This document shows, piece after piece, positions 801 through 55,504 of a stretch of DNA of 64,000 nt. Source of the stretch: an uncultured bacterium (GTDB taxonomy: Bacteria > Bacillota > Clostridia > Lachnospirales > Lachnospiraceae); NCBI GenBank assembly GCA_947647735.1, contig CANSLJ010000006.1, forward strand, positions 62,001 through 126,000, written 5' to 3'. Each line of letters starts with the position of its first letter. The first letter of the stretch is position 1. The notes under the pieces are model-generated. The model was given only the letters and a program-made list of their open reading frames with translations, did not search any database and was not told the DNA's origin. Position numbers and translations under genes: made by a program.

Positions 801-922
801 GGGGTAATATATCCTGTGAAGGATATAGAAAAACGCCGGCACTTAGTTAGGTAGTTCACGAGCATAGTGTCCGCTGCGTTTTTCTCTAAGCGGGAGCGTG
901 CCTGAACAGGATATATTACCCC
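801..922 (-). repeat. Palindromic covarying element R1, copy 1 (reverse orientation)
   Basis: The ends at 801-817 and 906-922 are perfect 17-bp inverted repeats. Inside, at 828-884, is the R1 core on the minus strand: AAAACGC, an AG bulge, CGG, an A bulge, CACT, a loop of about 20 nt, then AGTGCCGGCGTTTT. The same core recurs at 6922-6978 and in two more places. This copy lies between the divergent pncB and ileS starts, so it cannot be a simple end-of-operon terminator. No T-run follows either arm. No obvious target-site duplication is seen. Confidence 0.9.
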
Positions 923-948
923 GGCGGCGTCCGCTTATCAATAAATTC

Positions 949-977
949 TTGACATTTTTAACACATCCCTTTAAACT
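949..977 (+). promoter_or_regulatory. Probable sigma-A promoter for ileS
   Basis: A perfect TTGACA at 949-954 is followed after 17 bp by TAAACT at 972-977. The gene start is 108 bp downstream of the -10 box, leaving an untranslated leader that contains one small hairpin. I see no T-box signature (no GGGTGG-like antiterminator bulge sequence) in the leader. Confidence 0.65.
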
Positions 978-1026
978 GAAAATGTTAAATATTTATATAT
1001 AGTAATTAGGAAGCAATACAACTGAA

Positions 1027-1060
1027 AATCCTGTCAAAATAGAAGAGGCAGGATTCTTTT
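1027..1060 (+). terminator. Small hairpin with T-run in the ileS leader (possible attenuator)
   Basis: AATCCTG at 1027-1033 pairs with CAGGATT at 1049-1055 and is followed by CTTTT. It sits between the predicted promoter and the ileS ribosome site, so it could be a weak intrinsic terminator controlling read-through. The stem is only 7 bp and the T-run is short, so it may be inefficient or incidental. Confidence 0.4.
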
Positions 1061-1084
1061 GTGATGATAGGAAAGGGAGAAGCC

Positions 1085-4000
1085 ATGTACCAGAAAGTTG
1101 ATACGAATCTGAATTTTGTAGACAGAGAAAAAGAAGTTTGTCAGTTCTGGAAAGAGAATGATATTTTTCAGAAATCCATGGACAGCAGAAAAGAGTGCCC
1201 GACTTATACATTTTATGACGGACCGCCGACAGCAAACGGAAAGCCCCATATCGGCCACGTGCTGACCCGTGTTATCAAAGATATGATCCCGAGATACAGG
1301 ACCATGAAAGGCTATATGGTGCCGAGGAAAGCGGGCTGGGATACCCACGGCCTGCCGGTGGAACTGGAAGTGGAGAAAGAGCTGGGCCTGGACGGAAAAG
1401 AGCAGATCGAGCAGTACGGGCTTGCACCCTTTATTGAAAAGTGTAAAGAGTCTGTCTGGCAGTATAAAGGCATGTGGGAGGATTTCTCCGGCACAGTGGG
1501 TTTCTGGGCTGACATGGATGACCCTTACGTGACCTATCATGATGATTTTATCGAGTCCGAGTGGTGGGCATTAAAACAGATCTGGGATAAGAAGCTTCTC
1601 TATAAAGGCTTTAAGATCGTGCCCTACTGCCCGAGATGTGGTACGCCCCTGTCCTCCCATGAGGTGGCACAGGGCTATAAAGCGGTAAAAGAGCGTTCTG
1701 CGGTGGTGCGTTTTAAAACGGTCGGCGAGGAGAACACCTATTTTCTGGCATGGACAACCACGCCCTGGACACTGCCCTCCAACGTGGCGCTCTGCGTAAA
1801 CCCGGAGGATACCTATTGTAAGGTGAAGGCGGCGGACGGCCATATTTATTATATGGCGCAGGAACTGCTGGACAATGTGCTGGGCTCTCTCGGGGAAGAG
1901 GGGAAACCGGCATATGAAGTGCTGGAGACATACACAGGAAAAGATCTGGAATACAAGGAATATGAACCGCTCTTTGCCTGCGCGGGGGAAGCGGCTCAGA
2001 AGCAGCGCAAAAAAGGCCATTTCGTAACTTGTGACAGCTATGTCACAATGTCCGACGGTACAGGTATCGTGCATATCGCGCCGGCTTTCGGTGAGGATGA
2101 TGCGAATGTGGGACGCAAGTATGACCTGCCTTTCGTGCAGTTTGTGGACGGACAGGGAAATATGACCGGTGAGACACCCTATGCAGGAAAGTTTGTAAAA
2201 GATGCGGATAAGGACATTCTGGTGGATCTTGATAAGGAGGGAAAACTCTTCTCCGCACCGAAATTTGAGCATGATTATCCGTTCTGCTGGCGATGTGATA
2301 CACCGCTGATCTACTATGCAAGGGAATCCTGGTTTATCAAGATGACTGCGGTGCGGGATGATCTTGTGAGAAACAATAAGACAGTAAACTGGATTCCGGA
2401 GTCCATCGGTGAGGGACGGTTCGGAAACTGGCTGGAAAATATTCAGGACTGGGGCGTTTCCAGAAACCGTTACTGGGGCACGCCGCTCAATATCTGGGAG
2501 TGCGGAGGCTGCGGACATCAGGAATCCATCGGCTCCAGGGAAGAGCTGGAGAAGCTCTCCGGCAATCCGAAAGCGAGGGATGTGGAACTGCACAGGCCCT
2601 ATATCGATGAGATCACCTGTACCTGCCCTGAGTGCGGCGGCACGATGAAGCGTGTGCCGGAGGTGATCGACTGCTGGTTTGACTCCGGCGCGATGCCTTT
2701 TGCACAGCATCACTATCCGTTTGAAAACAAGGAACTGTTTGAGTCTCAGTTCCCGGCACAGTTTATCTCAGAGGCGGTGGATCAGACAAGAGGATGGTTC
2801 TATTCCCTGATGGCGGAGTCCACCCTGCTGTTTAATAAATCACCTTTTGAAAATGTGATCGTGCTGGGCCATGTGCAGGATGAGAACGGCCAGAAGATGA
2901 GCAAGAGCAAAGGAAATGCGGTGGATCCTTTTGAGGCGCTGGAAACCTACGGCGCAGACGCGATCCGCTGGTATTTCTATATCAATTCAGCACCCTGGCT
3001 GCCCAACCGCTTCCACGGCAAGGCGGTGCAGGAAGGACAGAGGAAATTCCTCGGCACGCTCTGGAATACTTATGCGTTCTTCGTGTTGTATGCAAATATT
3101 GACGGATTTGACGCTACAAAATATACGCTGGATTATGAGAAACTGTCGGTTATGGACAAGTGGCTCCTGTCCAAATTAAATACGGCGGTCGGACAGGTGG
3201 ACGAACACCTTGATAACTACAGGATCCCGGAAGCGGCGCGTGTGCTGGATAATTTTGTGGACGAGATGAGCAACTGGTATGTGCGCAGGAGCAGGGAACG
3301 TTTCTGGGCGAAAGGTATGGAGCAGGATAAGATCAATGCCTATATGACGCTTTACACGGCGCTTGTGGAGATCTGCAAATGCGCTGCGCCGATGGTGCCT
3401 TTCATGACAGAGGAAATTTATCAGAATCTGGTATGCAGTATCGATAAAGAGGCGCCGGAGAGTATCCACCTCTGTGATTTCCCGGCCGTAAAGAGTGAGT
3501 TTATCGACAAAGAACTGGAAGAATATATGGAGGAAGTGCTGCGTATCGTAGTGCTGGGCAGAGCGGCAAGGAATGAGGCAAATATCAAGAACCGTCAGCC
3601 CATCGGCGAGATGATCGTGAAGGCGGAGAGCGAACTGCCCGCGTTTTATCAGGATATTGTCAGGGATGAGCTGAACGTGAAGGAAGTTACCTTTACGGAT
3701 GATGTCTCCTCCTTTACAAGCTACAGCTTCAAACCGCAGCTTCGGACGCTGGGGCCGAAATACGGCAAACAACTTGGCGGCATCAGGACTTATCTGGCAA
3801 ATGTGGACGGGCTTTCCGCCATGGCGGCTGTGACTTCCTTCAAGGAAGGCGGCACGCTGGACTTTGAGGTGGACGGCGTACAGATCTCACTGGCAGAGGA
3901 AGATCTGTTGATCGAAATGTCCCAGAAAGAGGGATATGTGGCGCAGGCTGACAAGAACGTGACAGTGGTGCTGAATACGAACCTGACTCCGGAATTGCTG

Positions 4001-4252
4001 GAGGAAGGCTTCTCGGCGGAAGTGATCAGCAAGATTCAGACGATGCGTAAGGATGCCGGTTTTGAGGTGATGGATCATATCAGCGTTTCCGTAACCGGAA
4101 ATGAGAAGATCGCGGATATCGTGAAGAAGAATGCCGACGCGATCTCTGAAAAGGTGCTGGCGGATGAGATCCTTTACGGTGATGCCCTTGCAGGAGCAAA
4201 AACATGGAAAGTGAACGGCGAAGAAGTGCAGATCGGCGTTCAGAAACGATAA
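1085..4252 (+). CDS. ileS: Isoleucyl-tRNA synthetase, long (IleS2-like) type
   Basis: Charges tRNA-Ile with isoleucine in the cytoplasm. The 1055-residue class I synthetase has HIGH at residues 55-58 (context KPHIGHVL) and KMSKS at 604-608. The editing domain contains WTTTPWTLPSN and the adenylation domain GWDTHGLPVE. That last sequence and the length resemble the IleS2 type, often less sensitive to mupirocin, more than the roughly 920-residue IleS1 of Bacillus; this is judged by eye. The open frame extends upstream to a GTG at 1061, but the ATG at 1085 has a GGGAG site 5 nt upstream and starts the conserved protein, so I chose it. It stands alone between its own promoter and glgP. Confidence 0.96.
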   Translation: MYQKVDTNLNFVDREKEVCQFWKENDIFQKSMDSRKECPTYTFYDGPPTANGKPHIGHVLTRVIKDMIPRYRTMKGYMVPRKAGWDTHGLPVELEVEKELGLDGKEQIEQYGLAPFIEKCKESVWQYKGMWEDFSGTVGFWADMDDPYVTYHDDFIESEWWALKQIWDKKLLYKGFKIVPYCPRCGTPLSSHEVAQGYKAVKERSAVVRFKTVGEENTYFLAWTTTPWTLPSNVALCVNPEDTYCKVKAADGHIYYMAQELLDNVLGSLGEEGKPAYEVLETYTGKDLEYKEYEPLFACAGEAAQKQRKKGHFVTCDSYVTMSDGTGIVHIAPAFGEDDANVGRKYDLPFVQFVDGQGNMTGETPYAGKFVKDADKDILVDLDKEGKLFSAPKFEHDYPFCWRCDTPLIYYARESWFIKMTAVRDDLVRNNKTVNWIPESIGEGRFGNWLENIQDWGVSRNRYWGTPLNIWECGGCGHQESIGSREELEKLSGNPKARDVELHRPYIDEITCTCPECGGTMKRVPEVIDCWFDSGAMPFAQHHYPFENKELFESQFPAQFISEAVDQTRGWFYSLMAESTLLFNKSPFENVIVLGHVQDENGQKMSKSKGNAVDPFEALETYGADAIRWYFYINSAPWLPNRFHGKAVQEGQRKFLGTLWNTYAFFVLYANIDGFDATKYTLDYEKLSVMDKWLLSKLNTAVGQVDEHLDNYRIPEAARVLDNFVDEMSNWYVRRSRERFWAKGMEQDKINAYMTLYTALVEICKCAAPMVPFMTEEIYQNLVCSIDKEAPESIHLCDFPAVKSEFIDKELEEYMEEVLRIVVLGRAARNEANIKNRQPIGEMIVKAESELPAFYQDIVRDELNVKEVTFTDDVSSFTSYSFKPQLRTLGPKYGKQLGGIRTYLANVDGLSAMAAVTSFKEGGTLDFEVDGVQISLAEEDLLIEMSQKEGYVAQADKNVTVVLNTNLTPELLEEGFSAEVISKIQTMRKDAGFEVMDHISVSVTGNEKIADIVKKNADAISEKVLADEILYGDALAGAKTWKVNGEEVQIGVQKR

Positions 4253-4371
4253 AAGAAAGCCGGTTTCATGCGGGAAATTGTGTGTTTTGTCTATTTCCTT
4301 TTGATGGTAAAGAGGCTATACTAAAATAGAAAAATAAGAATAATGAAAAGCATTGAGGAAGGGAGAGTGTC

Positions 4372-6855
4372 ATGGTACTCAAATCACAGCAGAAAAAATT
4401 AAGCTTTGATAAGGAACTTTTTAAAAGAAGTGTGCTGTATAATGTAAAAACGTTATACAGAAAAACATTAGAAGAAGCAACACCCCAGCAGATTTTCCAG
4501 GCAGTGTCCTATGCGATCAAGGACGCAGTGGTGGATCACTGGATGGAGACGCAGAAACAGTATGAAAAGCAGGACCCCAAGATGGTGTACTATATGTCCA
4601 TGGAATTTTTGATGGGACGTGCGCTGGGTAACAATATCATCAATCTGCAGGCTTATTATACAGTGGAGGAAGCTCTGAAGGAACTGGGAGTGGACATCAA
4701 TGTGATAGAAGATCAGGAGCCGGATGCAGCACTCGGCAACGGCGGCCTCGGACGTCTGGCGGCATGTTTCCTGGATTCTTTATCTACATTGGGTTATGCG
4801 GCTTACGGCTGTGGTATCCGGTATCATTACGGCATGTTCAAACAGCAGATCAGGGACGGTTTCCAGATCGAAGTGCCTGACAACTGGCTGGAATACGGAA
4901 ATCCTTTTGAATTGAGAAGGCCGGAGTATGCAAAAGAAGTAAAATTCGGCGGTTATGTCAATGTATATGTGGATGAGAACGGCAGAAGCCATTTCCGTCA
5001 GGAAGGGTATCAGTCTGTAAAGGCGATTCCCTATGATATGCCGATCGTCGGCTATGGCAACGGCATTGTGAATACGCTTCGTATCTGGGATGCGGAGCCT
5101 GTTGAGTGCTTCCAGCTGGATTCCTTCGACAAGGGCGATTACCAGAAGGCAGTGGAGCAGCAGAACCTTGCCCGCAATATCGTGGAAGTGCTTTATCCGA
5201 ATGATAATCATTATGCAGGAAAAGAACTCCGCCTGAAACAGCAGTATTTCTTTATCTCCGCATCTGTGCAGGAAGCGGTGGCGAAGTATATGAGAAAGCA
5301 TGACGATATCAGGAAGTTCCATGAAAAGGCAACCTTCCAGCTTAACGATACGCATCCGACGGTGGCAGTTGCCGAGCTGATGCGTGTGCTGATGGATGAG
5401 CATTTCCTGACCTGGGATGAGGCATGGGAAGTGACAACGAAGACCTGTGCTTACACGAACCATACGATCATGTCGGAAGCGCTTGAGAAATGGCCGATCG
5501 AGCTGTTCTCCAGGCTCCTGCCCCGTATCTACCAGATCATTGAGGAGATCAACAGGCGGTTTGTGATGCGGATCGAGCAGATGTATCCGGGCAATCAGGA
5601 GAAGGTGCGCAAGATGGCGATCCTCTACGACGGTCAGGTGAAGATGGCGCATCTGGCGATCGCGGCGGGCTATTCTGTAAACGGTGTGGCAAGGCTGCAC
5701 ACAGAGATCCTGAAAAATCAGGAACTGAAAGATTTCTATGAGATGATGCCTGAGAAGTTCAATAATAAGACAAACGGTATCACACAGAGAAGGTTCCTGC
5801 TGCACGGCAATCCGCTTCTGGCGAAATGGGTGACAGACCATGTGGGAGCCGACTGGATCACTGACTTGCCGAAGATCGCGGGACTGAAAGTGTACGCTGA
5901 TGATAAGAAGTCCCAGCAGGAATTCATGAATATCAAGTATCAGAACAAGGTTCGTCTGGCGAACTATATTCTGGAGCACAATGGAATTGAAGTGGATCCC
6001 CGTTCCATTTTCGATGTGCAGGTAAAGAGGCTGCATGAATATAAGAGACAGCTCCTGAACATCCTGCATGTGATGTATTTATATAACGAACTCAAGGATC
6101 ATCCGGATATGGAATTCTATCCGAGAACGTTCATCTTTGGTGCGAAAGCGGCAGCAGGCTATAAGAATGCAAAACTGACTATCAAGCTGATCAATGCGGT
6201 TGGCGATGTGGTGAATAATGATCCCTCCATCAATGGTAAGATCAAAGTTGTGTTTATCGAAGATTACCGGGTTTCCAATGCGGAGATGATCTTTGCGGCT
6301 GCGGATGTTTCCGAGCAGATCTCCACGGCAAGCAAAGAGGCTTCCGGTACAGGTAATATGAAGTTTATGTTAAACGGCGCGCTGACGATCGGTACGATGG
6401 ATGGCGCTAATGTGGAGATCGTGGAGGAAGTAGGGGAAGAGAATGCGTTCATTTTCGGCCTCAGTTCCGAGGAAGTGATCCGTTTTGAAAACTTTGGCGG
6501 ATATGATCCGATGGAGATCTTCAACAACGATCAGGATGTCAGAAGAGTGCTGATGCAGCTGATCAATGGGACATATGCTCCTCATGATCCGGAATTGTTC
6601 CGTTCTCTGTATAACTCACTGCTGAATACACAGTCTACCAGTAAGGCGGATACTTACTTTATCCTGAAGGACTTTAAGGCTTATGCAGCAGCACAGAAGA
6701 GAGTGGAAGAAGCTTATCGGGATGAACAGGGCTGGGCGAAGAAGGCTATTTTGAATGTGGCATGCTCCGGCAAGTTTACGTCGGATCGGACGATCCAGCA
6801 GTATGTGGATGAGATCTGGCATCTGGATAAGGTTGTGCTGCCGGTGAAAAAATAA
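4372..6855 (+). CDS. glgP: Glycogen/maltodextrin phosphorylase
   Basis: An 827-residue GT35 phosphorylase that releases glucose-1-phosphate from alpha-1,4-glucan ends using pyridoxal phosphate. The PLP lysine is K664 in KEASGTGNMKFML, followed by the signature NGALTIGTMDGANVEI. The N-terminal half carries EPDAALGNGGLGRLAACF, and QLNDTHP and VKRLHEYKRQLLN are also typical. Length is normal for the bacterial family. A GGGAG site precedes the ATG, and a possible TATACT -10 box lies at 4317-4322 with a weak -35. No other glycogen gene is adjacent. R1 copy 2 begins 22 bp after the stop. Confidence 0.97.
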   Translation: MVLKSQQKKLSFDKELFKRSVLYNVKTLYRKTLEEATPQQIFQAVSYAIKDAVVDHWMETQKQYEKQDPKMVYYMSMEFLMGRALGNNIINLQAYYTVEEALKELGVDINVIEDQEPDAALGNGGLGRLAACFLDSLSTLGYAAYGCGIRYHYGMFKQQIRDGFQIEVPDNWLEYGNPFELRRPEYAKEVKFGGYVNVYVDENGRSHFRQEGYQSVKAIPYDMPIVGYGNGIVNTLRIWDAEPVECFQLDSFDKGDYQKAVEQQNLARNIVEVLYPNDNHYAGKELRLKQQYFFISASVQEAVAKYMRKHDDIRKFHEKATFQLNDTHPTVAVAELMRVLMDEHFLTWDEAWEVTTKTCAYTNHTIMSEALEKWPIELFSRLLPRIYQIIEEINRRFVMRIEQMYPGNQEKVRKMAILYDGQVKMAHLAIAAGYSVNGVARLHTEILKNQELKDFYEMMPEKFNNKTNGITQRRFLLHGNPLLAKWVTDHVGADWITDLPKIAGLKVYADDKKSQQEFMNIKYQNKVRLANYILEHNGIEVDPRSIFDVQVKRLHEYKRQLLNILHVMYLYNELKDHPDMEFYPRTFIFGAKAAAGYKNAKLTIKLINAVGDVVNNDPSINGKIKVVFIEDYRVSNAEMIFAAADVSEQISTASKEASGTGNMKFMLNGALTIGTMDGANVEIVEEVGEENAFIFGLSSEEVIRFENFGGYDPMEIFNNDQDVRRVLMQLINGTYAPHDPELFRSLYNSLLNTQSTSKADTYFILKDFKAYAAAQKRVEEAYRDEQGWAKKAILNVACSGKFTSDRTIQQYVDEIWHLDKVVLPVKK

Positions 6856-6877
6856 ATAAGGCGTGATAATAGAGTCC

Positions 6878-7011
6878 GCCCGGATAAAAAATATCCCTTC
6901 AGAGCCCCGCTCTCACTTCGAGGAAAACGCAGCGGACACTAGGCTCGTGAAATACCTCGCCAAGTGCCGGCGTTTTCCTAGAGGCTCTTCAGGGATATTT
7001 TTTATCCGGGC
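6878..7011 (+). repeat. Palindromic covarying element R1, copy 2
   Basis: Perfect 21-bp inverted arms at 6878-6898 and 6991-7011 enclose the R1 core at 6922-6978. After a 2-nt mismatch the outer stem continues with AGAG/CTCT. In this copy the core stem ends are GGAAAACGC and GCGTTTTCC where others have GAAAAACGC and GCGTTTTTC, a base-pair-preserving change. It fills the gap between glgP and the hydratase gene, where no ordinary terminator is visible. Confidence 0.92.
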
Positions 7012-7084
7012 TACGTTATTGCAAAAAGATTGTTTCGTTATTGTAATGTTTAACTTTATATGAAAGAAAGGGTAAGTATAGAAT

Positions 7085-9379: not shown

Positions 9380-9451
9380 TATTTTTCCTGAACTTCACCC
9401 ATAAATTTTTCGGGAAAACTTCCGATATATTTAATACAGGATGAGTAAAAT

Positions 9452-32399: not shown

Positions 32400-33791
32400 A
32401 TGGATTTAACAGAAATTCGCGAATTGTATAGAAATAAGGAAGAATATATCGGAAAGCAGATAACGGTGGGCGGCTGGATCAGGAGCATCAGGGATTCCAA
32501 GACGTTTGGGTTTATTGTGGTGAACGACGGAACCTTTTTTGAGCCGCTACAGATCGTTTACAGCGACAAGCTGGACAATTTTGAGGAGATCAGCAGGCTG
32601 AATGTGGGTGCGGCGATCGTTGTCAAAGGAACACTGGTGGCAACGCCGCAGGCGAAACAGCCTTTTGAGATCCAGGCGGAGGAGGTAATGGTGGAGGGCG
32701 CTTCCGTGCCGGAGTATCCGCTCCAGAAAAAACGTCACAGCTTTGAGTATCTGAGGACGATCCCCCATCTTAGGGCAAGGACCAACACGTTTCAGGCTGT
32801 GTTCAGGGTACGTTCCCTGATCGCCTATGCCATCCATACGTTCTTTATGGAGAGGGGCTTTGTCTATGTGCATACACCGATCATCACAGGTTCTGACTGT
32901 GAGGGAGCAGGTGAGATGTTCCAGGTGACAACGCTGGATATGGAAAATCCGCCGAAGAGGGATGACGGAAGTATAGATTATGACAGCGACTTTTTCGGAA
33001 AACAGGCAAACCTTACGGTTTCCGGCCAGCTCAATGTGGAGACCTATGCTTTTGCTTTTAAGAATGTTTATACGTTCGGCCCCACCTTCCGGGCGGAAAA
33101 CTCCAATACGACGCGCCATGCGGCGGAGTTCTGGATGATCGAGCCGGAGATCGCCTTCGCGGACCTGAAGGATGATATGATCCTGGCAGAATCCATGATC
33201 AAATATGTGATCCGTTATGTGCTGGAGCATGCGCCGGAGGAGATGAAGTTCTTTAACAGCTTTGTGGACAAGGGACTGATCGAGCGGCTTGAGCATGTGG
33301 CGAATTCTGATTTTGCCCATGTGACCTACACGGAAGCAATTGACATTTTAGAGAAGCATAATGATGAGTTTGATTACAAGGTTTCCTGGGGCTGTGATCT
33401 GCAGACGGAGCATGAGCGCTACCTGACAGAAAAGGAATTTAAGCGTCCTGTTTTCGTGACAGATTATCCGAAGGAGATCAAAGCGTTCTATATGAAGCTG
33501 AACGAGGACGGGAAGACAGTAGCGGCTATGGACTGCCTTGTGCCGGGGATCGGTGAGATCATCGGCGGTTCCCAGAGGGAAGACGACCTTGAGACGCTGG
33601 AGAGAAGAATGGAAGAGATGGGGCTGAAAAAGGAAGATTACGATTTTTATCTGGATCTTCGCCGTTACGGTTCCGTGCGCCATGCGGGCTTCGGACTCGG
33701 GTTTGAGCGCTGCGTGATGTATCTGACAGGTATGTCGAATATTCGTGATGTGCTGCCGTTCCCGAGGACTGTGAAGAACTGTGAGTTGTAA
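32400..33791 (+). CDS. asnS: Asparaginyl-tRNA synthetase
   Basis: 463 residues, class II synthetase. OB-fold anticodon domain at the N-terminus ([20 protein letters not shown]), motif 2 in [20 protein letters not shown] and motif 3 in [15 protein letters not shown]. The asparagine-specific character is supported by overall resemblance; AspS has a large insert not seen here. GGAGAGGGAAG precedes the ATG. There is no T-box leader in the 41-bp upstream gap. R1 copy 3 starts 16 bp after the stop codon. Confidence 0.95.
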
Positions 33792-33806
33792 ATTGTGAGA
33801 ACGGAC

Positions 33807-33945
33807 GCTATGTCAGGAATTATATTCCCTCGTCGCCACGCTCTCGCTCTGTAAAAAACGCAGCGGACACTAAACTCGTGAAATACCTCGTTAAGTGCCG
33901 GCGTTTTTTGAAGGGCTCCTTAGGGAATATAATTCCTGACATAGC
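33807..33945 (+). repeat. Palindromic covarying element R1, copy 3
   Basis: Perfect 24-bp inverted arms at 33807-33830 and 33922-33945 enclose the R1 core: AAAACGC, AG bulge, CGG, A bulge, CACT, loop, AGTG, CCG, GCGTTTT. Outer arm sequence differs from the other copies while remaining fully self-complementary. It lies between asnS and the NlpC/P60 gene with no T-run after it. Confidence 0.92.
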
Positions 33946-45924: not shown

Positions 45925-45925
45925 T

Positions 45926-46858: not shown

Positions 46859-46859
46859 T

Positions 46860-47681: not shown

Positions 47682-47684
47682 TCT

Positions 47685-48167: not shown

Positions 48168-49549
48168 GTGAAAGCATGGTACAGGATATTGTATCAGAAG
48201 TTATGGCAAAGATGCAGATCGCTGACACTCCTTCCGGCAAGCATGGCATATTCAAGGATATGAATGAAGCTATTGCAGCGGCGCAGAAGGCACAGAAGAT
48301 TGTCAGAAATCTGTCCATGGATCAGAGAGAGAAGATCATCTCCAATATCCGTAAAAAGACACATGAAAATGCCGAGATCTTCGCAAGGATGGGCGTGGAT
48401 GAGACCGGAATGGGCAATGTGCCCCATAAGATCTTAAAACACCATCTGGTAGCAGACAAGGTACCCGGCACAGAAGATATTACAACAGAGGCATATTCGG
48501 GAGACAGGGGACTTACCCTTGTGGAAATGGGACCTTTCGGCGTGATCGGCGCGATCACTCCCTGCACTAACCCTTCAGAGACAGTGCTCTGTAACGCAAT
48601 GGGAATGATCGCAGGCGGAAATACGGTGGTATTCAACCCGCATCCCCAGGCGATCAAAACATCGATCTATGCTATCAATCTGGTGAACGAAGCTTCTCTG
48701 GAGGCAGGCGGTCCGGACAATGTGGCATGTACGGTAGAAAAACCTACGCTGGCAACCAGTGATATCATGATGCACCATCCGGCGATCCAGCTCATTGCGG
48801 CAACCGGCGGTCCGGGTGTTGTGACGGCGGTTCTTTCTTCCGGAAGAAGAGGCATCGGCGCAGGGGCAGGCAATCCGCCCGCACTGATCGATGAAACGGC
48901 AGATATCAGAAAAGCAGCGGCGGATGTGGTAAACGGCTGTACATTTGATAATAATCTGCCCTGTATCGCAGAAAAAGAGATCGTGGCAGTGGAGAGCATC
49001 ATCGACGAACTGCTGCATTATATGGTAAATGAGCAGGGTTGCTATCTGGCTTCCAAAGAAGAGCAGGATAAGCTGGCAGCTACTGTACTTACACCAAAGG
49101 GAACACTCAACAGAAAATGCGTGGGACGTTCCGCGAAGGTACTGCTCTCCATGATCGGAGTGGAAGTACCGGATAATATCCGCTGCATCACTTTCGTTGG
49201 AGAGAAAGAACATCCGCTGATCACAGAGGAACTGATGATGCCGATCCTTGGCATTGTTCCCGCCAAGGATTTTGAGGATGGTGTGGAAAAAGCTGTATGG
49301 CTTGAGCATGGCAACCGCCACTCCGCACATATTCATTCCAAGAACGTAGACAGGATCACACAGTATGCAAAAGCACTGGATACGGCGATTCTTGTAAAGA
49401 ACGGTCCCTCATATGCGGCGCTGGGATTCGGCGGCGAGAGTATCTGTACCTTCACGATCGCCAGCAGAACAGGCGAAGGATTGACCAGCGCAAAGAGCTT
49501 TACGAAGAAACGGCGTTGTGTGATGACGGATAATTTGTGCATAAGATGA
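48158..49549 (+). CDS. pduP: CoA-acylating propionaldehyde dehydrogenase
   Basis: 463 residues. Oxidises propionaldehyde with NAD and CoA to propionyl-CoA inside the shell. The catalytic cysteine is C269 in NNLPCIAEKEIV; EMGPFGVIGAITPCTNPSET is a family-typical segment. The N-terminal SMVQDIVSEVMAKM is a classic PduP encapsulation helix. The gene overlaps the end of the GlcG-like gene, so translation may be coupled. A structured spacer separates it from the alcohol dehydrogenase. Confidence 0.93.
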   Translation: MPISESMVQDIVSEVMAKMQIADTPSGKHGIFKDMNEAIAAAQKAQKIVRNLSMDQREKIISNIRKKTHENAEIFARMGVDETGMGNVPHKILKHHLVADKVPGTEDITTEAYSGDRGLTLVEMGPFGVIGAITPCTNPSETVLCNAMGMIAGGNTVVFNPHPQAIKTSIYAINLVNEASLEAGGPDNVACTVEKPTLATSDIMMHHPAIQLIAATGGPGVVTAVLSSGRRGIGAGAGNPPALIDETADIRKAAADVVNGCTFDNNLPCIAEKEIVAVESIIDELLHYMVNEQGCYLASKEEQDKLAATVLTPKGTLNRKCVGRSAKVLLSMIGVEVPDNIRCITFVGEKEHPLITEELMMPILGIVPAKDFEDGVEKAVWLEHGNRHSAHIHSKNVDRITQYAKALDTAILVKNGPSYAALGFGGESICTFTIASRTGEGLTSAKSFTKKRRCVMTDNLCIR

Positions 49550-49585
49550 AAAAATTTTCTGGGTTTCATCTGATAAAATAAAACA

Positions 49586-49690
49586 GCATCTGCTCGAACG
49601 GTGTCCAGAGAATTTACAGATGCGTAAGCAACTGGAAATTTCTCTGCTGTCTATGATACCGGCAGAGCTGATGCGGAACTGGAATGGAGG
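49586..49690 (+). repeat. Structured spacer with Shine-Dalgarno-bearing right end (element E3, copy 2)
   Basis: GCATCTGCTC (49586-49595) pairs with GAGCTGATGC (49665-49674) with one mismatch. Nested inside, CAGAGAATTT (49606-49615) pairs with AAATTTCTCTG (49636-49646) with a one-base bulge. The right end GCGGAACTGGAATGGAGG matches the sequence in front of the reductase at 16024 and carries the ribosome site of the alcohol dehydrogenase 7 nt before its ATG. Confidence 0.7.
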
Positions 49691-49697
49691 TATAATA

Positions 49698-50918
49698 ATG
49701 GCAGTAAATTCAAATGACGTTGAGCAGATCGTCAGACAGGTACTTGCCAGCATGACTGACGGCAGTGTGAGAAGCGCTGCGCCGGCGGCAGCTCCCGCGG
49801 CGGGGAATATTCCCAAGACGGGAAAGGTGGCGGTGCTGACACAGTTAAAGCACTTTGATATCAGAGAATATCCGATCCCTGAAGTGGGCGATGACGATAT
49901 GCTGGTGAAAGTGGAAGGCTGCGGCGTATGCGGTACGGATGCTCACGAGTATAAAAACGATCCTTTCGGGTTGATCCCCGTGGCACTGGGACATGAAGGT
50001 ACCGGTGAGATCGTGAAGATGGGTAAGAATGTGAAGAAAGACAGTGCGGGAAAAGACGTAAAAGTCGGCGACAAGATCGTAACCTGCATGATCTTCAAAG
50101 ACAACCCGGATATCACAATGTATGATTTAAATAAACAGAATGTCGGCGGCGCCGATGTATACGGCCTGCTGGCAGAAGATGCATCTAACTTTAACGGCTG
50201 GTTTGCGGAATATATTCTGATCAGAGGCGCTCTTGGTTCCACATTCTTTAATGTGAGCGATCTGGATCTGGATTCCCGTATCCTGATCGAGCCCTGCGCG
50301 GTGCTGATCCACGCAGTAGAGCGGGCAAAAACAACAGGAATTCTCCGGTTTAACAGCCGTGTGGTAGTACAGGGCTGCGGTCCTATCGGCCTGATTTGTA
50401 TCGCAATCTTAAAGACGATGGGCATGGTGAACATCATCGCTGTGGACGGCAATGAACAGAGGCTGGAATTTGCAAAACGCCTCGGTGCGGCGGGCAGCGT
50501 AAACTTTATGAACTATAAAGGCATCGAGAATCTGGCAAAGGGCGTGGAGGATGCGTTCGGCGGACATCCCGCGGATTTCGCTTTCCAGTGTACCGGCTCA
50601 CCGGTGGCTCATGCCAACATTTATAAGTTCATCAGAAACGGCGGCGGTCTTTGCGAGCTGGGCTTCTTCATCAACGGTGGAGATGCAACCATCAATCCGC
50701 ACTTTGACCTTTGCTCCAAGGAGATCACGCTGGTAGGCTCCTGGGTATACACACTGAGAGATTATGTGACTACCTTTGATTTCTTAAAGAGCGCAAAGGC
50801 GATCGGGCTTCCGCTGTCAGAACTGATCACAGACAGATATCCGTTAGAGCAGATCAATGAGGCACTGGAGAAGAATCTGGCAATGACGGGACTGAAGATC
50901 GCAATCGTAAACAAATAA
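49698..50918 (+). CDS. Zinc-dependent medium-chain alcohol dehydrogenase with encapsulation peptide
   Basis: 406 residues. Reduces propionaldehyde to propanol, regenerating NAD for the aldehyde dehydrogenase. GCGVCGTDAHEYKND and ALGHEGTGEIV supply catalytic zinc ligands; VQGCGPIGLICIAILKTMG is the Rossmann motif. The usual four-cysteine structural zinc lobe is not obvious. An N-terminal amphipathic helix (NDVEQIVRQVLASMTDG) and an Ala/Pro linker precede the enzyme, marking it as cargo. Many Pdu systems use an iron-dependent PduQ instead. It could also reduce lactaldehyde; that is untested. Open frame upstream to 49620 is rejected because GGAGG sits 7 nt before 49698. Confidence 0.88.
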   Translation: MAVNSNDVEQIVRQVLASMTDGSVRSAAPAAAPAAGNIPKTGKVAVLTQLKHFDIREYPIPEVGDDDMLVKVEGCGVCGTDAHEYKNDPFGLIPVALGHEGTGEIVKMGKNVKKDSAGKDVKVGDKIVTCMIFKDNPDITMYDLNKQNVGGADVYGLLAEDASNFNGWFAEYILIRGALGSTFFNVSDLDLDSRILIEPCAVLIHAVERAKTTGILRFNSRVVVQGCGPIGLICIAILKTMGMVNIIAVDGNEQRLEFAKRLGAAGSVNFMNYKGIENLAKGVEDAFGGHPADFAFQCTGSPVAHANIYKFIRNGGGLCELGFFINGGDATINPHFDLCSKEITLVGSWVYTLRDYVTTFDFLKSAKAIGLPLSELITDRYPLEQINEALEKNLAMTGLKIAIVNK

Positions 50919-50968
50919 GCACAGGTGCTTATCTGCTTACGATGTACTAAGCTGAAGGAGTATAAGCG

Positions 50969-51313
50969 ATGGAAGAAAAAATGTTAGAGGAAGTGAAAGA
51001 CGAAAGAGCCGTTGGCATTCTGGAAGTATTCGGGCTTACAACAGCTTTTCTGGCAGCAGATGCGGGCTGTAAAGCGGGTGATGTGACGCTTGAAAACTTC
51101 GATAAGAATAAACCGGCAAATGCGGATGCACTTCCGGTTCCACTGCTGGTAACAATCAAATTTCGCGGATCAGTGGCAGATGTGGAAGCGGCTATGGAGG
51201 CGGCAAAACAGGTGGCTGCAAGCGGAGCAGGGATCGTACAGAGTTATATTATCCCGAGGCCGACGCCGGATTGCTGCAAAATGTTGAAACTGAACGCATT
51301 CGATAAACGATGA
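50969..51313 (+). CDS. Microcompartment shell protein, divergent BMC-H
   Basis: 114 residues. One BMC domain: AVGILEVFGLTTAFLAADAGCKA and VADVEAAMEAAKQVAASG. It has a 12-residue charged N-terminal extension and a longer loop (FDKNKPANADALPVP) in place of the usual short turn, which would lie near the hexamer face. The pore loop KFRGSVADV differs from the RGDVGAV of the standard shell genes. Its position starts the shell gene cluster. Confidence 0.87.
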   Translation: MEEKMLEEVKDERAVGILEVFGLTTAFLAADAGCKAGDVTLENFDKNKPANADALPVPLLVTIKFRGSVADVEAAMEAAKQVAASGAGIVQSYIIPRPTPDCCKMLKLNAFDKR

Positions 51314-51334
51314 AAAATTAGGAGGAATATTTAA

Positions 51335-51610
51335 ATGGCACAGGAAGCTTTAGGAATGATTGAAACAAGAGGACTTACCGCTGCGATCGAGGCAGCAGAT
51401 GCAATGACCAAGGCAGCAGAGGTAGCACTGGTTGGTACAGAGAAGATCGGAAGCGGACTGGTAACAGTTATGGTTCGCGGTGATGTAGGCGCTGTAAAAG
51501 CAGCAGTGGAATCCGGCGCATCCGCAGCAAGCAGACTGGGTGAACTGGTAGCACAGCACGTAATTCCCCGTCCTCACAACGATGTGGAAAAGATCTTACC
51601 GACTATTTAA
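51335..51610 (+). CDS. Microcompartment shell protein, BMC-H (PduA/J type)
   Basis: 91 residues. Canonical hexamer: [40 protein letters not shown] and [15 protein letters not shown]. The pore segment KIGSGLVT matches PduA-like proteins that pass propanediol. Very similar to the gene at 51979, including a 44-bp identical stretch. AGGAGG precedes the ATG. Confidence 0.95.
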
Positions 51611-51620
51611 GGAGTAACTG

Positions 51621-51929
51621 ATGGGAAACGCATACGGCTTTATTGAAATACAGGGTGTCGTACCGGCAATGACCGCACTGGACATCATGTGCAAAACGGC
51701 AAATGTAGAACTGGCTACCTGGGAGCGTAAACTCGGTGGACGACTGGTGACACTGATCGTGCAGGGAGATGTGTCCGCTGTGACACAGGCAGTTGAGACA
51801 GCCGCAAAAAACGGTATAGGAAAGCCGGCGGTACAGGGCGTTATTGCAAATCCCCATCCGGAGATCGTGAGGCTGGTAAGAAAATCCGCCAGCAGGTTTA
51901 AGGATGCGGAGGCATTGGAAAAGATGTAA
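51621..51929 (+). CDS. Microcompartment shell protein, BMC-H
   Basis: 102 residues. Single BMC domain with GFIEIQGVVPAMTALDIMCK, LGGRLVTLIVQGDVSAVTQA and GVIANPHPEIVRLV. The pore loop ERKLGGRLV is more basic than in its neighbours, and a 13-residue C-terminal tail extends past the domain. Different gating from the PduA-like paralogs is likely (inference). Confidence 0.92.
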   Translation: MGNAYGFIEIQGVVPAMTALDIMCKTANVELATWERKLGGRLVTLIVQGDVSAVTQAVETAAKNGIGKPAVQGVIANPHPEIVRLVRKSASRFKDAEALEKM

Positions 51930-51978
51930 AAACAGGGTAAAGCACCCGATCCAAACAAAATGAAGGAGGAAATTCATT

Positions 51979-52257
51979 ATGGCACAGGAAGCATTAGGAA
52001 TGGTTGAAACAAGAGGTCTGGTAGCATCTATCGAAGCAGCAGATGCTATGTGTAAAGCAGCTAACGTTACACTGATCGGCACAGAGAAGATCGGAAGCGG
52101 ACTGGTAACAGTTATGGTTCGCGGCGATGTAGGCGCTGTGAAATCTTCTGTGGAAGCAGGCGCAAACAGCGCTGCAAAACTGGGCGAGCTGATCGCTACC
52201 CATGTAATTCCTCGTCCTCACAATGATGTTGAGATGATCTTACCGAAGGTAAAATAA
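51979..52257 (+). CDS. Microcompartment shell protein, BMC-H (PduA/J type)
   Basis: 92 residues, paralog of the gene at 51335. The pore region [18 protein letters not shown] is the same, and the C-terminus ends [25 protein letters not shown] precedes the ATG by 10 nt. Followed by the structured element E2. Confidence 0.95.
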
Positions 52258-52265
52258 GGTAACCA

Positions 52266-52450
52266 GCTCAGCCGGACTGAGTGCACTGTGAAAAATCGTG
52301 CTTGCACGAATTTTGAGCAGTGCATTCGGTCCGAGGGAGCGCCGTTTTATGAGCAAAAGGAGCTGCGAAGCGGCGGAGAGCACCGAAGGTGCGTTTTTGC
52401 GAATGGCGCGGGCTGAGCGTCAGGAAGACAACGAAGGACTGGAATAGAGG
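52266..52450 (+). other. Multibranched structured RNA-like element E2 between shell and pduL genes
   Basis: GCTCAGCC (52266-52273) pairs with GGCTGAGC (52411-52418) as a closing stem. Arm A (52274-52333) is a long hairpin: GACTGAGTGCACTG with CAGTGCATTCGGTC, and inside it AAAATCGTGC with GCACGAATTTT. Arm B (52339-52409) has GCGCC with GGCGC, then GCAAAA with TTTTGC, enclosing two hairpins with GAA loops, GCTGC-GAA-GCGGC and GCACC-GAA-GGTGC. The right end GACTGGAATAGAGG (52437-52450) provides the pduL ribosome site. No riboswitch class known to me matches it. Confidence 0.72.
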
Positions 52451-52457
52451 TGTCAAA

Positions 52458-53108
52458 TTGGATACAAATAATGTAGAACTGATTACAAAATTAGTGATTG
52501 AAGCCTTAAATAAGCAGGAAGCAGAGAAGAACGAAAAAGGCTATCTTGTTCCTGTAGGGGTATCCAACCGTCATGTTCACTTAACACAGGAGCATGTGGA
52601 GACATTATTCGGAGAAGGCTACCATTTAACAAAGAAAAAAGACCTGATGGGCGGGCAGTTTGCATCGAACGAGCTGGTAACGATTGTTGGCTTGAAGCTG
52701 CGTGCTATTGAAAATGTCAGGATCTTAGGCCCCTGTCGCAGTAAGAGCCAGGTGGAGATTTCCGCAACGGATGCAAGGACGCTGGGGATCAAAGCTCCTG
52801 TCAGGGAGTCCGGTAATGTGGCAGGAAGCGCGCCGATCGCGCTGGTAGGCCCGAAAGGAGTTTTATATCTGAATGAGGGTTGTATCGTAGCACAGCGCCA
52901 TATACATATGTCCCCGGCGGATGCGGCGGCATCAGGCTGTAAGGACGGCGATATTGTATCGGTGGTGGCGGATAACGAAAGAGGAACGGTATTCAATCAT
53001 GTGAAGATCCGTGTGCATGAAAGCTTTACGCTGGAGATGCATATTGATACGGATGAGGCAAATGCAAGTAGGATTGCACAGGGTGATACGGTTAGGATTA
53101 TGAAATGA
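52458..53108 (+). CDS. pduL: PduL-type phosphate propanoyltransferase
   Basis: 216 residues. Converts propionyl-CoA to propionyl phosphate and recycles CoA inside the shell. Zinc ligands H39 and H41 lie in SNRHVHLT, and H148 and H150 in QRHIHMSP. The N-terminal NNVELITKLVIEALNKQ is the PduL encapsulation helix. The start is a TTG at 52458 with GAGG 7 nt upstream; no in-frame ATG or GTG fits. The open frame extends back into E2 but that part is not protein-like. The stop overlaps an apparent start for the next frame; a CCCGGA hairpin separates the genes. Confidence 0.93.
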   Translation: MDTNNVELITKLVIEALNKQEAEKNEKGYLVPVGVSNRHVHLTQEHVETLFGEGYHLTKKKDLMGGQFASNELVTIVGLKLRAIENVRILGPCRSKSQVEISATDARTLGIKAPVRESGNVAGSAPIALVGPKGVLYLNEGCIVAQRHIHMSPADAAASGCKDGDIVSVVADNERGTVFNHVKIRVHESFTLEMHIDTDEANASRIAQGDTVRIMK

Positions 53109-53188
53109 TCATAAGCCAGATGCCCGGATGGGATATTCCTGTCCGGGCTGGTAATGGCTTATACAGAATTGATAATAGGAGCAGGATT

Positions 53189-53455
53189 ATGATAGCTGCG
53201 AAAGTAGTGGGAAGTATTGTTTCTACGAGGAAGAGTGAGAATTTAATCGGGAATAAATTTATGATCGTTGAGCCTGTGGGATGTATGAAGGGGCATGGGG
53301 ATCAGTTTGTTGCCATTGATAATATAGGTGCCGGTATCGGAGAGTATGTGCTAGTTGCGCAGGGGAGTGCGGCGAGGATCGGATGCGGTCTGGATACTGC
53401 GCCGGTGGATGCGGCGATCGTTGGTATCATTGATGATGCCAGCGGACTGGAGTAG
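53189..53455 (+). CDS. Microcompartment vertex protein, EutN/CcmL/PduN type (BMC-P)
   Basis: 88 residues. Pentamer that caps icosahedral vertices. MIAAKVVGSIVSTRKSENL and VAIDNIGAGIGEYVLVAQGS are the family signatures. The ATG at 53189 follows AGGAGCAGG; the longer open frame from 53105 is rejected. It ends 4 nt before the PduS gene. Confidence 0.93.
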   Translation: MIAAKVVGSIVSTRKSENLIGNKFMIVEPVGCMKGHGDQFVAIDNIGAGIGEYVLVAQGSAARIGCGLDTAPVDAAIVGIIDDASGLE

Positions 53456-53459
53456 GATT

Positions 53460-54797
53460 ATGGAATTACAGGAATTGAAAGATCTGCTGCAAAAGAGCGG
53501 GATCGTGGGTGCCGGCGGTGCCGGATTTCCCACTTATGCAAAACTGGATGAACGTGCGGAGACGATTCTTTTAAACTGTGCGGAGTGTGAGCCTTTGTTA
53601 AAGCTGCACAGACAGCTCCTGAAGGAATATGCCTATGAGATACTGAAGATGTTCAGCATGGTTGCGGACACGGTTCAGGCGGGCAGCGGCATTATTGGCA
53701 TTAAAGGTGAATATAAGGAGACGATACAGGCTTTAAAACAGTATATCGGGGAGTTCCCGAAGCTTTCGATCAAGCTTCTGGACAGCGCCTACCCGATGGG
53801 TGATGAAGTTGTATTGGTTTATGAGGCAACCGGCAAGGTGATCAGGCCGGGCGGGCTGCCGATAGAGGCGGGTGTGGCGGTATTTAACGTGGAAACGATG
53901 TATAATATATATCGTGCGGTAGAGTTCGGCGCACCGGTGACAGATAAAGTGGTATCCGTTGTGGGAGAGGTGGAACATCCGGTTTCCGTCAGAGTTCCCA
54001 TCGGATGTAAAATAGAAGATGTTGTGGCACTGGCAGGAGAGGTTACGACAAAAGAGCCTGTATATTTTATTGGCGGACCGATGATGGGATTTATCGGGGA
54101 AAAGGATATGCCGGTGACGAAGACCACCAATGCGGTGATCGTACTGCCGAAGGATCATCAGATCGTTCAGCGGAAAAAGAGCAAGGCTTCTCTGGAATTA
54201 AAGAGGGCGGCGTCCTCCTGTTGTCAGTGTGAGACCTGCACAAGCCTTTGTCCGAGACACGCGCTGGGGCATCCCATCGAGCCGCATCTGTTTATGCGTT
54301 CGGCGGCAAATCAGGATTTTCAGCATATTGAAGCATTTTTAAACACTTCTTTCTGCAGTTCCTGCGGTGTGTGCGAGATGTATGCCTGTCCTCAGGGGCT
54401 GGCGCCGAGAAGCCTGATCGCGGAGTGTAAGGACGGGCTGAAGAAGGCAGGTGTGAGGCCGCCGGCGGACGTCAAGGCGGCGCCGGTCAAAAAGTCAAGA
54501 GAGTACCGGAAAGTACCGGAGATGAGGCTGGAGGCAAGGCTGGGACTTTCCAAATATAATGTGCCTGCGCCGTTGCAGGATGAGACGGTTCAGATGCCTT
54601 ATGTGACAGTGAAGATGAGCCAGCATATCGGGGCGCCGGCATCTCCCGCCGTGAAGGCCGGGGATATGGTAAAAGCCGGAGATGTGATAGGAAATCCGGG
54701 AAACGGTTTGAGCGTGGCGATACATGCGTCAATAGACGGCAAAGTAGTGGCGGCAGATAAAAATGCAGTGACGATCCAGGGGAGGGTTAAAAGATGA
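53460..54797 (+). CDS. pduS: PduS-type ferredoxin/flavin electron-transfer protein (RnfC-like)
   Basis: 445 residues. N-terminal flavin/NADH-binding region (GIVGAGGAGFPTYAKL, LNCAECEPLLKLHR), a SLBB-like middle, and two [4Fe-4S] motifs: C254, C255, C257, C260 and C264 in CCQCETCTSLC, and CSSCGVCEMYACPQG. In B12-dependent systems it reduces cobalamin. This locus has a glycyl radical dehydratase and no B12 genes, so it probably carries electrons across the shell with the next gene, PduT. Ends overlapping PduT by 4 nt. Confidence 0.92.
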   Translation: MELQELKDLLQKSGIVGAGGAGFPTYAKLDERAETILLNCAECEPLLKLHRQLLKEYAYEILKMFSMVADTVQAGSGIIGIKGEYKETIQALKQYIGEFPKLSIKLLDSAYPMGDEVVLVYEATGKVIRPGGLPIEAGVAVFNVETMYNIYRAVEFGAPVTDKVVSVVGEVEHPVSVRVPIGCKIEDVVALAGEVTTKEPVYFIGGPMMGFIGEKDMPVTKTTNAVIVLPKDHQIVQRKKSKASLELKRAASSCCQCETCTSLCPRHALGHPIEPHLFMRSAANQDFQHIEAFLNTSFCSSCGVCEMYACPQGLAPRSLIAECKDGLKKAGVRPPADVKAAPVKKSREYRKVPEMRLEARLGLSKYNVPAPLQDETVQMPYVTVKMSQHIGAPASPAVKAGDMVKAGDVIGNPGNGLSVAIHASIDGKVVAADKNAVTIQGRVKR

Positions 54798-55342
54798 GCA
54801 GAGCGATTGGAATGATTGAATTTAAGACGGTTTCTTCCGGTGTGGTTGCTGCGGATAATATGGTAAAGACCTCCGATGTGGAGCTGATCGAAGCGGAAAC
54901 AGTCTGTCCCGGTAAGTATATAGCGATCATTGCGGGGGATCTGAGCGCTGTGGATGCGGCGGTGAAAAATGCGATCACCCAGAGCGGTGAGAATCTGATC
55001 GACAGTTTTGTGCTGGGAAACCCGCATGAATCCATTTTTCCTGCCATTTACGGCACAACGCATCTGGAGAAGGTGCGCGCACTCGGGATTCTGGAAACCT
55101 TTGATGCGGCGGCGATCATCCAGGCGGCGGATGTGGCTGCAAAGACGGCTATCGTGGATTTGATCGAACTGCGTATCGCGAAGGGGATGTGCGGAAAATC
55201 CTATATGTTTTTGACCGGTGAGGTGGCAGCGGTACAGGCGGCGATAGACAGAGCGATCGAGGAGGTCGGGCCGAAGGGGATGTATCTGGATTCTTCGGTT
55301 ATTGCGCAGCCGGATGAGCAGGTTTGCAAGTCGGTGCTGTAG
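54794..55342 (+). CDS. pduT: PduT-type tandem BMC shell protein with candidate iron-sulfur site
   Basis: 182 residues, two BMC domains (about 1-90 and 91-182) forming a trimer. C38 in AETVCPGK lies at the position where PduT of Salmonella binds a [4Fe-4S] cluster in its central pore. Overlapping the PduS gene by 4 nt (ATGA), it is well placed to relay electrons from PduS through the shell. Last gene of the operon; R1 copy 4 follows. Confidence 0.93.
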   Translation: MSRAIGMIEFKTVSSGVVAADNMVKTSDVELIEAETVCPGKYIAIIAGDLSAVDAAVKNAITQSGENLIDSFVLGNPHESIFPAIYGTTHLEKVRALGILETFDAAAIIQAADVAAKTAIVDLIELRIAKGMCGKSYMFLTGEVAAVQAAIDRAIEEVGPKGMYLDSSVIAQPDEQVCKSVL

Positions 55343-55357
55343 TATGATAAGCTGTGA

Positions 55358-55504
55358 GGGATGCCGACGGATAAATATATTCCTTCTGTGTCACGCTCTC
55401 GCTTCGTGAAAAACGCAGCGGATGCTAAGCTCGTGAGATACCTCGCTAAGCACCGGCGTTTTTCAAGAGGCACTGTCAGGAATATATTTATCCGTCGGCA
55501 TCCC
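55358..55504 (+). repeat. Palindromic covarying element R1, copy 4
   Basis: Perfect 27-bp inverted arms at 55358-55384 and 55478-55504. The core has GGATGCT paired with AGCACC where the other three copies have GGACACT paired with AGTGCC: two compensatory base-pair changes. The AG and A bulges are kept. It lies between the pduT and DeoR genes, with no T-run. Confidence 0.93.

Follow-up and report, generated by a model that had tools for sequence, protein, structure and literature searches.

How can a hairpin keep its two arms paired when the sequence of those arms differs from one locus to the next? The question is raised by four dispersed palindromic elements in a 64,000-nucleotide stretch of DNA from an uncultured member of the Lachnospiraceae (assembly GCA_947647735.1, contig CANSLJ010000006.1, positions 62,001 to 126,000; the whole stretch is called the window below), which an initial annotation had described as hairpins with a shared core and locus-specific arms. 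We propose that they belong to a family of mobile DNA elements, and that this family is best explained as a miniature inverted-repeat transposable element (MITE) of the IS66 type whose interior is an unusual hairpin, a reading that we hold to be probable if well short of certain. The mobile nature of the family is well supported. The link to IS66 comes from a few copies in a sister genome of the same genus (G003) and would extend to the genome that carries the window (G000, the host genome).

A family of long hairpins in the host genome

The four elements lie where the initial annotation had put them, with perfect outer arms of the lengths that it gave (Table 1), and an alignment places the AG bulge and the A bulge on one side of the stem in all four. 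Two parts of that description need amendment. The core AAAACGC-AG-CGG-A-CACT...AGTG-CCG-GCGTTTT holds for copies 1 to 3, but CACT/AGTG is replaced by TGCT/AGCA in copy 4; and the arms are indeed locus-specific over most of their length, but their inner part is usually AT-rich (...TATATCC/GGATATA...).

The family extends beyond the window. The core pattern, with up to three mismatches allowed, had 27 matches in the host genome against none for a reversed control pattern, and a covariance model built from 24 of these 27 copies (L009, L010 and L023 were left out) found 77 matches at E <= 0.001, in principle a lower bound, as 150 of 965 first-look candidates were scored. Outer arms of 16-35 bp, perfect or nearly so and of locus-specific sequence, are present in 76 of the 77 copies, which measure 112-252 bp from arm to arm; the remaining copy (L242) has 11-bp arms, spans 58 bp and has lost the core. 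All 68 genome matches of a separate model for the inner mini-hairpin fall within the 77 long elements.

Conserved sequence continues beyond the arms, with GGAC or GTCC on the 5' side and TG(G/C)... on the 3' side. The 5' motif stands exactly at the arm edge in 44 of the 77 copies, copies 1 and 4 of the window being without it. The two edges are coupled: the third right-edge place is G in 19 and C in none of the 29 GGAC copies, and C in 12 of the 15 GTCC copies, as for 6874-6877 with 7012-7016 in copy 2. Pairing of the outer arms continues at most partially past the GGAC edge, a stem score of 9 being reached by 10 of 77 host copies against 8 of 376 shuffled partners, and in G003 by 5 of 34 elements against 7 of 165.

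The initial annotation had recognised no named family, and none emerged here: Rfam gave no match at gathering scores in the whole window and none up to E = 1 in the region of copy 3, the open-licence literature held no description of this repeat, and the literature on RAYT in Firmicutes, nemis-type repeats and ERIC contained nothing decisive.

Mobility and the ends of the element

Across 61 genomes, the long model matched 19, the host included. Within the genus 8 of 9 genomes matched, with at least 51 copies in the host and 26, 0, at least 51, 11, 8, 4, 3 and 4 in the others; beyond the genus, the model matched 11 of 28 further genomes of the family, and the 24 genomes drawn from the order's other families gave no match.

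Occupancy of individual sites also differs among relatives. At the site of copy 2, the long element is present in G001, G003, G005 and G008 as well, the same gene in G002 and G004 has no such element after it, and G006 and G007 carry a short hairpin, GCCCGGATATTTTATATCCGGGC, whose edges are similar and which could have arisen by deletion between GGATAT repeats. The other two sites compared were each searched in six genomes. At copy 3, G003 has an element with different arms, G001, G005 and G007 have none, G006 has a possible decayed remnant, and the G008 contig stops before the site. At copy 4, G003 again has an element with different arms, G001, G005, G006 and G008 have none, and G007 is too divergent to judge. 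Of 34 elements located by pattern in 43 G003 loci, 32 came from loci picked by model score, and only 3 of these 32 share flanks with one of the 77 host copies; the other two, at copies 2 and 4, came from loci picked as shared sites, and the site of copy 3, which the pattern did not detect, is shared as well. Among the host loci searched, none was an empty site corresponding to a G003 insertion.

Some G003 copies extend 44 bp past each arm to inverted repeats, GTAACAGTTC/GAACTGTTAC. Among the 34 elements, the left repeat lies at -44 in four and the right repeat at +44/45 in five; at any distance within 90 nt there are six left and six right repeats, against 0 and 1 in an opposite-orientation control. 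Perfect 8/8 bp target duplications stand at exactly (44,44) in L309 (CAACGGTT) and L318 (AGATTTTA), and a 6/8 bp duplication at the same offsets in L320. Averaged over 4,900 offset pairs, 0.026 of 27 copies match at 7/8 or better, and at least five other pairs of the 4,900 also give two copies with a 7/8 match; the duplications carry weight because their place was fixed beforehand by the repeats and because the matches are perfect. Among 43 copies on contigs of named genomes, the repeats show no clear excess (2 left and 3 right, against 1 and 2 in the control). The uneven copy number, from 0 to at least 51 in the eight other genomes of the genus, the sites of copies 3 and 4 that are filled in some relatives and empty in others, and the ends and 8-bp duplications in G003 support the earlier suggestion of a non-autonomous mobile element.

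The last 19 bp of L309, TTGAAGGCTGAACTGTTAC, recur unchanged (19/19) in the host genome at the end of L389, a remnant of an IS66 transposase, where they lie 24 nt 3' of the stop codon; in the ~1.7 Mb examined (overlaps included), this sequence occurs with zero mismatches only in L309 (= L029) and L389. The L389 protein matches Pfam PF03050 (E 3.8e-7) and the NCBIfam IS66 transposase model (E 2.3e-17, 63 bits, below the model cut-off of 180), and the IS66 genes of the host are broken or partial in this draft genome. Passages of PMC12898284 give repeats GTGACTACTCAGCA/GTAACTGCTCAGCA and an 8-bp duplication for ISDge4, a member of the IS66 family. An IS66-family transposase is the putative mover because the last 19 bp of a G003 copy equal the end of an IS66 remnant. 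These two loci belong to different genomes of one genus, and the host copies do not share such ends, so that for them mobility by IS66 would follow by homology only.

Variants of the same ends occur elsewhere. L136:85-116 is a tiny element that consists almost only of terminal repeats (GTAACAGTGCAGCC, four bases, GGCTGAACTGTTAC). In G003, two loci have the GTAACAGTTC end and a GCGGAC edge: the inner hairpin is missing from L391, and another hairpin takes its place in L394.

A different mobiliser would be at work if the elements formed a REP/BIME/REPIN-like family, moved by a single-strand transposase (Y1, RAYT) that recognises the mini-hairpin. The mini-hairpin does have a mismatch in its stem, occurs alone or in tandem in other Lachnospiraceae, and is REP-like in size. 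Counts of Y1_Tnp, however, do not track counts of the element: G001, with 26 elements, has none, and the host has one truncated Y1 remnant with a stop codon. The hairpin is absent from that remnant and from all ten Y1 loci examined (of more than 100 matches in relatives), and the inverted-repeat ends and 8-bp duplications of some G003 copies also argue against such a mover. Y1/RAYT was rejected as mobiliser because the counts are uncoupled and the ten loci lack the hairpin, and we regard the whole reading as very improbable. E. coli carries ERIC, to which the initial annotation had likened the elements. The likeness in size and intergenic placement stands, but copy 4 had no blastn match (11-base words) in 5,426 E. 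coli genomes, a comparison made with the genomes and not directly with the ERIC sequence; membership in ERIC or REP is not supported. A viral, plasmid or phage origin was likewise rejected: viral contigs held no exact core match, and part of copy 4 had no blastn match among plasmids and phages.

Covariation of the stems

The covariation alignment comprised 81 rows, of which four were duplicates, leaving 77 distinct rows fitted to the structure, a procedure that itself favours covariation. Two-sided changes occur at 27 of 36 stem pairs, and 98.1% of cells pair. The covariation score is 0.474, compared with 0.148 for shuffled and 0.065-0.098 for slid alignments, and every covariation measure lies above all 500 shuffles and all slid versions. 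The stems thus covary, as the initial annotation had proposed. In a second alignment, of 42 mini-hairpins, some of which had been selected with a pattern that fixes the letters of the stem, two-sided changes occur at 6 of 8 pairs and 93.8% of cells pair, and two of the five measures do not exceed the shuffles.

A structure that is kept while arm sequence is free, together with one-sided bulges and a position after stop codons, also brings to mind the attC sites of integrons, where recombination acts on a folded single strand and whose recombinase recognises a DNA hairpin with variable arms and conserved bulges; the overall lack of a preference for G.T mispairs, described below, fits such a site as well. 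Yet the conserved edges GGAC/GTCC and TG(G/C) do not fit the attC end boxes when compared by eye, and the copies are dispersed rather than gathered in cassette arrays. Judged by edge sequence and arrangement, it is in our view highly unlikely that the elements are sites of this kind.

Matching of the arms

Paired arms that vary between loci could be maintained by selection on a structured RNA, namely a 3' untranslated region (UTR) hairpin that governs mRNA stability, serves as an RNase III site or binds a protein; the arms would then covary because the RNA must pair. The kinds of mispair bear on this alternative. Of the 792 pairs in the 44 host copies with a GGAC/GTCC anchor, 781 are Watson-Crick, five G.T and six mismatched, with three to four Watson-Crick pair types in 17 of 18 columns, and in 26 anchored G003 elements the figures are 459, two and seven of 468. 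G.T thus makes up 0.6% of anchored arm pairs in the host, against 7.8% in the acceptor stems of 22 tRNAs (12 of 154, in a register chosen to favour Watson-Crick pairs).

Whole stems were compared in three sets, pooling 3537 pairs, of which 3479 are Watson-Crick, 19 G.T, 19 A.C and 20 other. The host contributes 77 stems (1864 pairs; 12 G.T, 3 A.C, 11 other), G003 33 elements (747 pairs; 2, 5 and 3; L309 was left out, its stem being mis-assigned) and the named contigs 43 elements (926 pairs; 5, 11 and 6). The last set was drawn from 118 rows after excluding 17 rows of the metagenome-assembled genome (MAG) S32_Bin7, two elements cut by contig ends, one with N letters, the weak L101 and partial matches; it still includes L127 of S32_Bin7, a pair with shared arms (L059 and L139) and two elements that score below 10 and have hardly any arms. 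The pooled G.T:A.C ratio of 19:19 speaks against RNA-level tolerance of G.T; the host set taken alone does not. Elements at one and the same site differ by changes in both arms: G003 and G001 at a single pair (copy 2), L216 and L314 at six, as counted by eye.

On the whole the pairing statistics favour a cause at the DNA level, where the arms seem to be matched, in line with the earlier idea that a hairpin rather than a fixed sequence is generated. Template switching is the likeliest, and a probable, cause; passages of PMC8794818 describe it as making and keeping hairpins.

Placement relative to genes

With crude open reading frame (ORF) calls of at least 90 aa, only 1 of the 77 host copies overlaps an ORF. 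The copies lie between genes read in the direction of the element (33), between genes read against it (20), between divergent genes (10) and between convergent genes (10), with four undetermined. Where an upstream gene reads into the copy (n = 43), the arm starts within 41 nt of the stop codon in 39, two of which slightly overlap the stop codon.

This placement fits the structured-RNA reading, and stem-loop repeats near 3' ends are discussed as possible enhancers of mRNA stability or turnover in passages of PMC1590033. The conserved bulges and loop of the core, the conservation of the copy 2 core above fourfold sites in 9 of 10 species pairs (see below) and the host's mispairs, G.T over A.C by 12:3, fit it as well. 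Against it stand the scarcity of G.T in anchored arms, the pooled mispair ratio, a sense-to-antisense split of 33:20 in tandem contexts (p = 0.10) and the 10 copies between divergent genes. We consider selection on an RNA a possible but rather unlikely explanation for the family.

An intrinsic, possibly two-way, transcription terminator is another function that a position just after stop codons might suggest, with A5 before and T5 after the inner stem (AAAAACGC...GCGTTTTT in many copies). A terminator scan found no site at copies 2, 3 and 4, with a loop limit of 3-8 nt that would miss this hairpin; one subgroup (GCTAAACGC/GCGTTTAGC) is without the T5 run, and the long outer arms are unneeded for termination. 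That the elements are terminators is improbable in our judgement.

Long elements also occur close together. Ten picked pairs, with members 14-584 nt apart, all face each other (L155, L163, L034, L061, L089, L099, L109, L121, L125 and L133). A conserved spacer between such convergent pairs was rejected: the flank matches are due to the second nearby element, and the spacers are unalike.

Conservation of the core

The core of copy 2 has an identity of 0.75-0.96 over 51-52 aligned positions, compared with 0.51-0.63 at fourfold sites, in 9 of 10 species pairs; the fourfold sites are those of the neighbouring gene, and the comparison covers one shared locus. In L010, L290 (G003), L253 (G005) and L254 (G008), an extra AT-rich hairpin replaces the terminal loop and the ACCTC loop motif is lost.

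The mini-hairpin module in other genomes

The mini-hairpin model matched 2 of 149 genomes across the phylum, both of the same family, and its exact pattern occurs in at least 113 stretches of named genomes. The record titles of these stretches name Lachnospiraceae, genera of that family, or broader groups (Clostridia, bacterium). Contigs of [Clostridium] symbiosum ATCC 14940 (L114, L133 and L138) carry a version clearly unlike that of the MAG labelled [Clostridium] symbiosum S32_Bin7, whose species label may therefore be mistaken.

At all four loci where the start of a 16S rRNA gene was found (L031, L072, L093 and L140), a mini-hairpin lies 84-86 nt 5' of that gene, with another one farther upstream in L031 and L093. 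The titles of these loci name four different groups; the loci were chosen for carrying the hairpin and so are uninformative on 16S leaders generally. A mini-hairpin also lies ~10 bases 5' of a tRNA gene at L130:5394-5419 and, by eye, likewise in L132, and just 3' of a tRNA gene in L069. In L044, L053, L063, L086 and L129, tandem mini-hairpins stand between TATACCA motifs, whose reverse complement resembles a -10 box; these arrays are a second, different repeat based on the same module.

We put forward, as a speculation that we think more likely wrong than right by some distance, that the 34-nt mini-hairpin is a Lachnospiraceae-wide recognition module, placed at a fixed distance in 16S rRNA leaders, before tRNAs and in mRNA leaders. 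In this genus it would have been captured by an IS66-type MITE whose arms are re-matched by template switching, giving a self-repairing palindrome that spreads the module to gene 3' ends.

Table 1. Features of the four hairpin elements; positions refer to the window unless a contig is named.
Feature	Position	Strand	Remark
Copy 1, hairpin element, arm edge to arm edge	801..922	-	Between two divergent ORFs
Copy 1, covariance-model match	G000:C6:62790-62933		G000, host genome
Copy 1, outer arm, 17 bp perfect	801..817	.	Pairs with 906-922
Copy 1, outer arm	906..922	.	Pairs with 801-817
Copy 1, core: A-tract/T-tract stem, AG and A bulges, mini-hairpin	829..883	-	
Copy 2, hairpin element	6878..7011	+	22 nt 3' of stop codon, ORF 4372-6855
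Copy 2, 5' edge GTCC motif	6874..6877	+	Other edge type is GGAC
Copy 2, outer arm, 21 bp perfect	6878..6898	.	Pairs with 6991-7011
Copy 2, outer arm	6991..7011	.	Pairs with 6878-6898
Copy 2, core stem, AG and A bulges	6924..6976	+	
Copy 2, mini-hairpin CTAGGCTCG..ACCTCGCCAAG	6939..6964	+	AGC/GCT stem altered to GGC/GCC
Copy 2, 3' edge motif TACGTTATTG	7012..7021	+	
Copy 3, hairpin element	33807..33945	+	15 nt 3' of stop codon, ORF 32400-33791
Copy 3, 5' edge GGAC motif	33803..33806	+	
Copy 3, outer arm, 24 bp perfect	33807..33830	.	Pairs with 33922-33945
Copy 3, outer arm	33922..33945	.	Pairs with 33807-33830
Copy 3, core stem, AG and A bulges	33855..33907	+	
Copy 3, mini-hairpin CTAAACTCG..ACCTCGTTAAG	33870..33895	+	
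Copy 4, hairpin element	55358..55504	+	15 nt 3' of stop codon, ORF 54794-55342
Copy 4, outer arm, 27 bp perfect	55358..55384	.	Pairs with 55478-55504
Copy 4, outer arm	55478..55504	.	Pairs with 55358-55384
Copy 4, core stem, AG and A bulges	55410..55463	+	
Copy 4, mini-hairpin CTAAGCTCG..ACCTCGCTAAG	55425..55450	+	

Discussion

We propose the following course of events for the family. A full element of ~225 bp, bounded by inverted repeats GTAACAGTTC/GAACTGTTAC, would be moved in trans by an IS66-family transposase and flanked by 8-bp target duplications; the ends and duplications are those seen in a few G003 copies, and we infer both the same ends for the host and movement in trans. Copies would come to rest mostly between genes, often just 3' of a stop codon, the pattern observed in the host. 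After insertion, the terminal repeats may decay and leave the inner hairpin. Template switching during replication would copy a change in one arm into the other, so that arms diverge between loci and stay paired within each locus, as is observed. Finally, selection may keep the core, its two bulges and the mini-hairpin, for protein binding or for an effect of the hairpin in the 3' end of a transcript.

A number of our own observations count against parts of this account. With regard to the ends, L325, one of the three G003 copies with both repeats, has no duplication, and in L318, where the duplication is present, the left repeat cannot be recognised. The 77 host copies show no clear excess of repeats (left repeats in 2 and right repeats in 5, against 1 and 3 in the control), no duplication offset stands out among the 44 anchored host copies, and IS66 DDE genes were not found in G003, a weak absence in a draft MAG. 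With regard to the arms, the host genome alone has more G.T than A.C mispairs, as RNA-level selection predicts, the even ratio coming from the other two sets; at one pair of the core, 18 of 75 cells are U.G; and the choice of stems by Watson-Crick score depresses every mispair rate, without distinction between G.T and A.C. The arms of copy 2, with no more than 1-2 pairs of difference among G000, G001 and G003, change more slowly than fourfold sites, a sign that the arms may be constrained as well. Template switching alone should erase the AG and A bulges, both of which persist; it leaves this persistence unexplained, so selection on the core is likely and the core may have a function. In the close pair G005/G008, however, the copy 2 core is no more conserved than fourfold sites (0.901 against 0.918), and the hairpin is kept there with its ACCTC loop lost, so this loop is not essential in those genomes.

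The family shares features with several known systems. Like bacterial MITEs such as MITEAba12, as described in passages of PMC6382973, the elements are short, within the roughly 50-600 bp span of MITEs, non-coding and dispersed, and some G003 copies also have the terminal inverted repeats, the target duplications and an end sequence shared with an insertion sequence. MITEAba12 is described as strongly conserved from copy to copy, with a length of 113 bp in 90% of its 90 copies, whereas here a very long hairpin interior has locus-specific arms. With the ISBst12 group of the IS66 family, represented by ISDge4 in the portions of PMC12898284 considered, the hairpin element shares GTRAC..YTCAGC-type ends and a target duplication of 8 bp; it carries no transposase, and its sequence likeness to that group is confined to the ends. 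ERIC and the 3'-end stem-loop repeats treated in parts of PMC1590033 resemble it in size, in lying between genes with a preference for their 3' side, and in hairpin potential, whereas its arms, unlike ERIC, vary freely between copies. With REP/BIME/REPIN families it has in common a small mismatch-bearing hairpin unit in many intergenic copies, but the present element is not associated with Y1 transposases in the loci examined. Integron attC sites similarly keep structure with free arm sequence and bulges on one side, but a comparison by eye showed no attC end boxes at the edges, and there are no cassette arrays.

More than 100 hairpins in related genomes form a large natural data set on how a long stem can change on both sides and stay paired, a question that is debated, and the types of mismatch in them help to separate DNA-level copying from RNA-level selection. 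For the Lachnospiraceae, our analysis adds a repeat family, a few copies of which have ends suggestive of an IS66 transposase, together with a hairpin module also found 84-86 bases 5' of the 16S gene at four loci chosen for carrying it.

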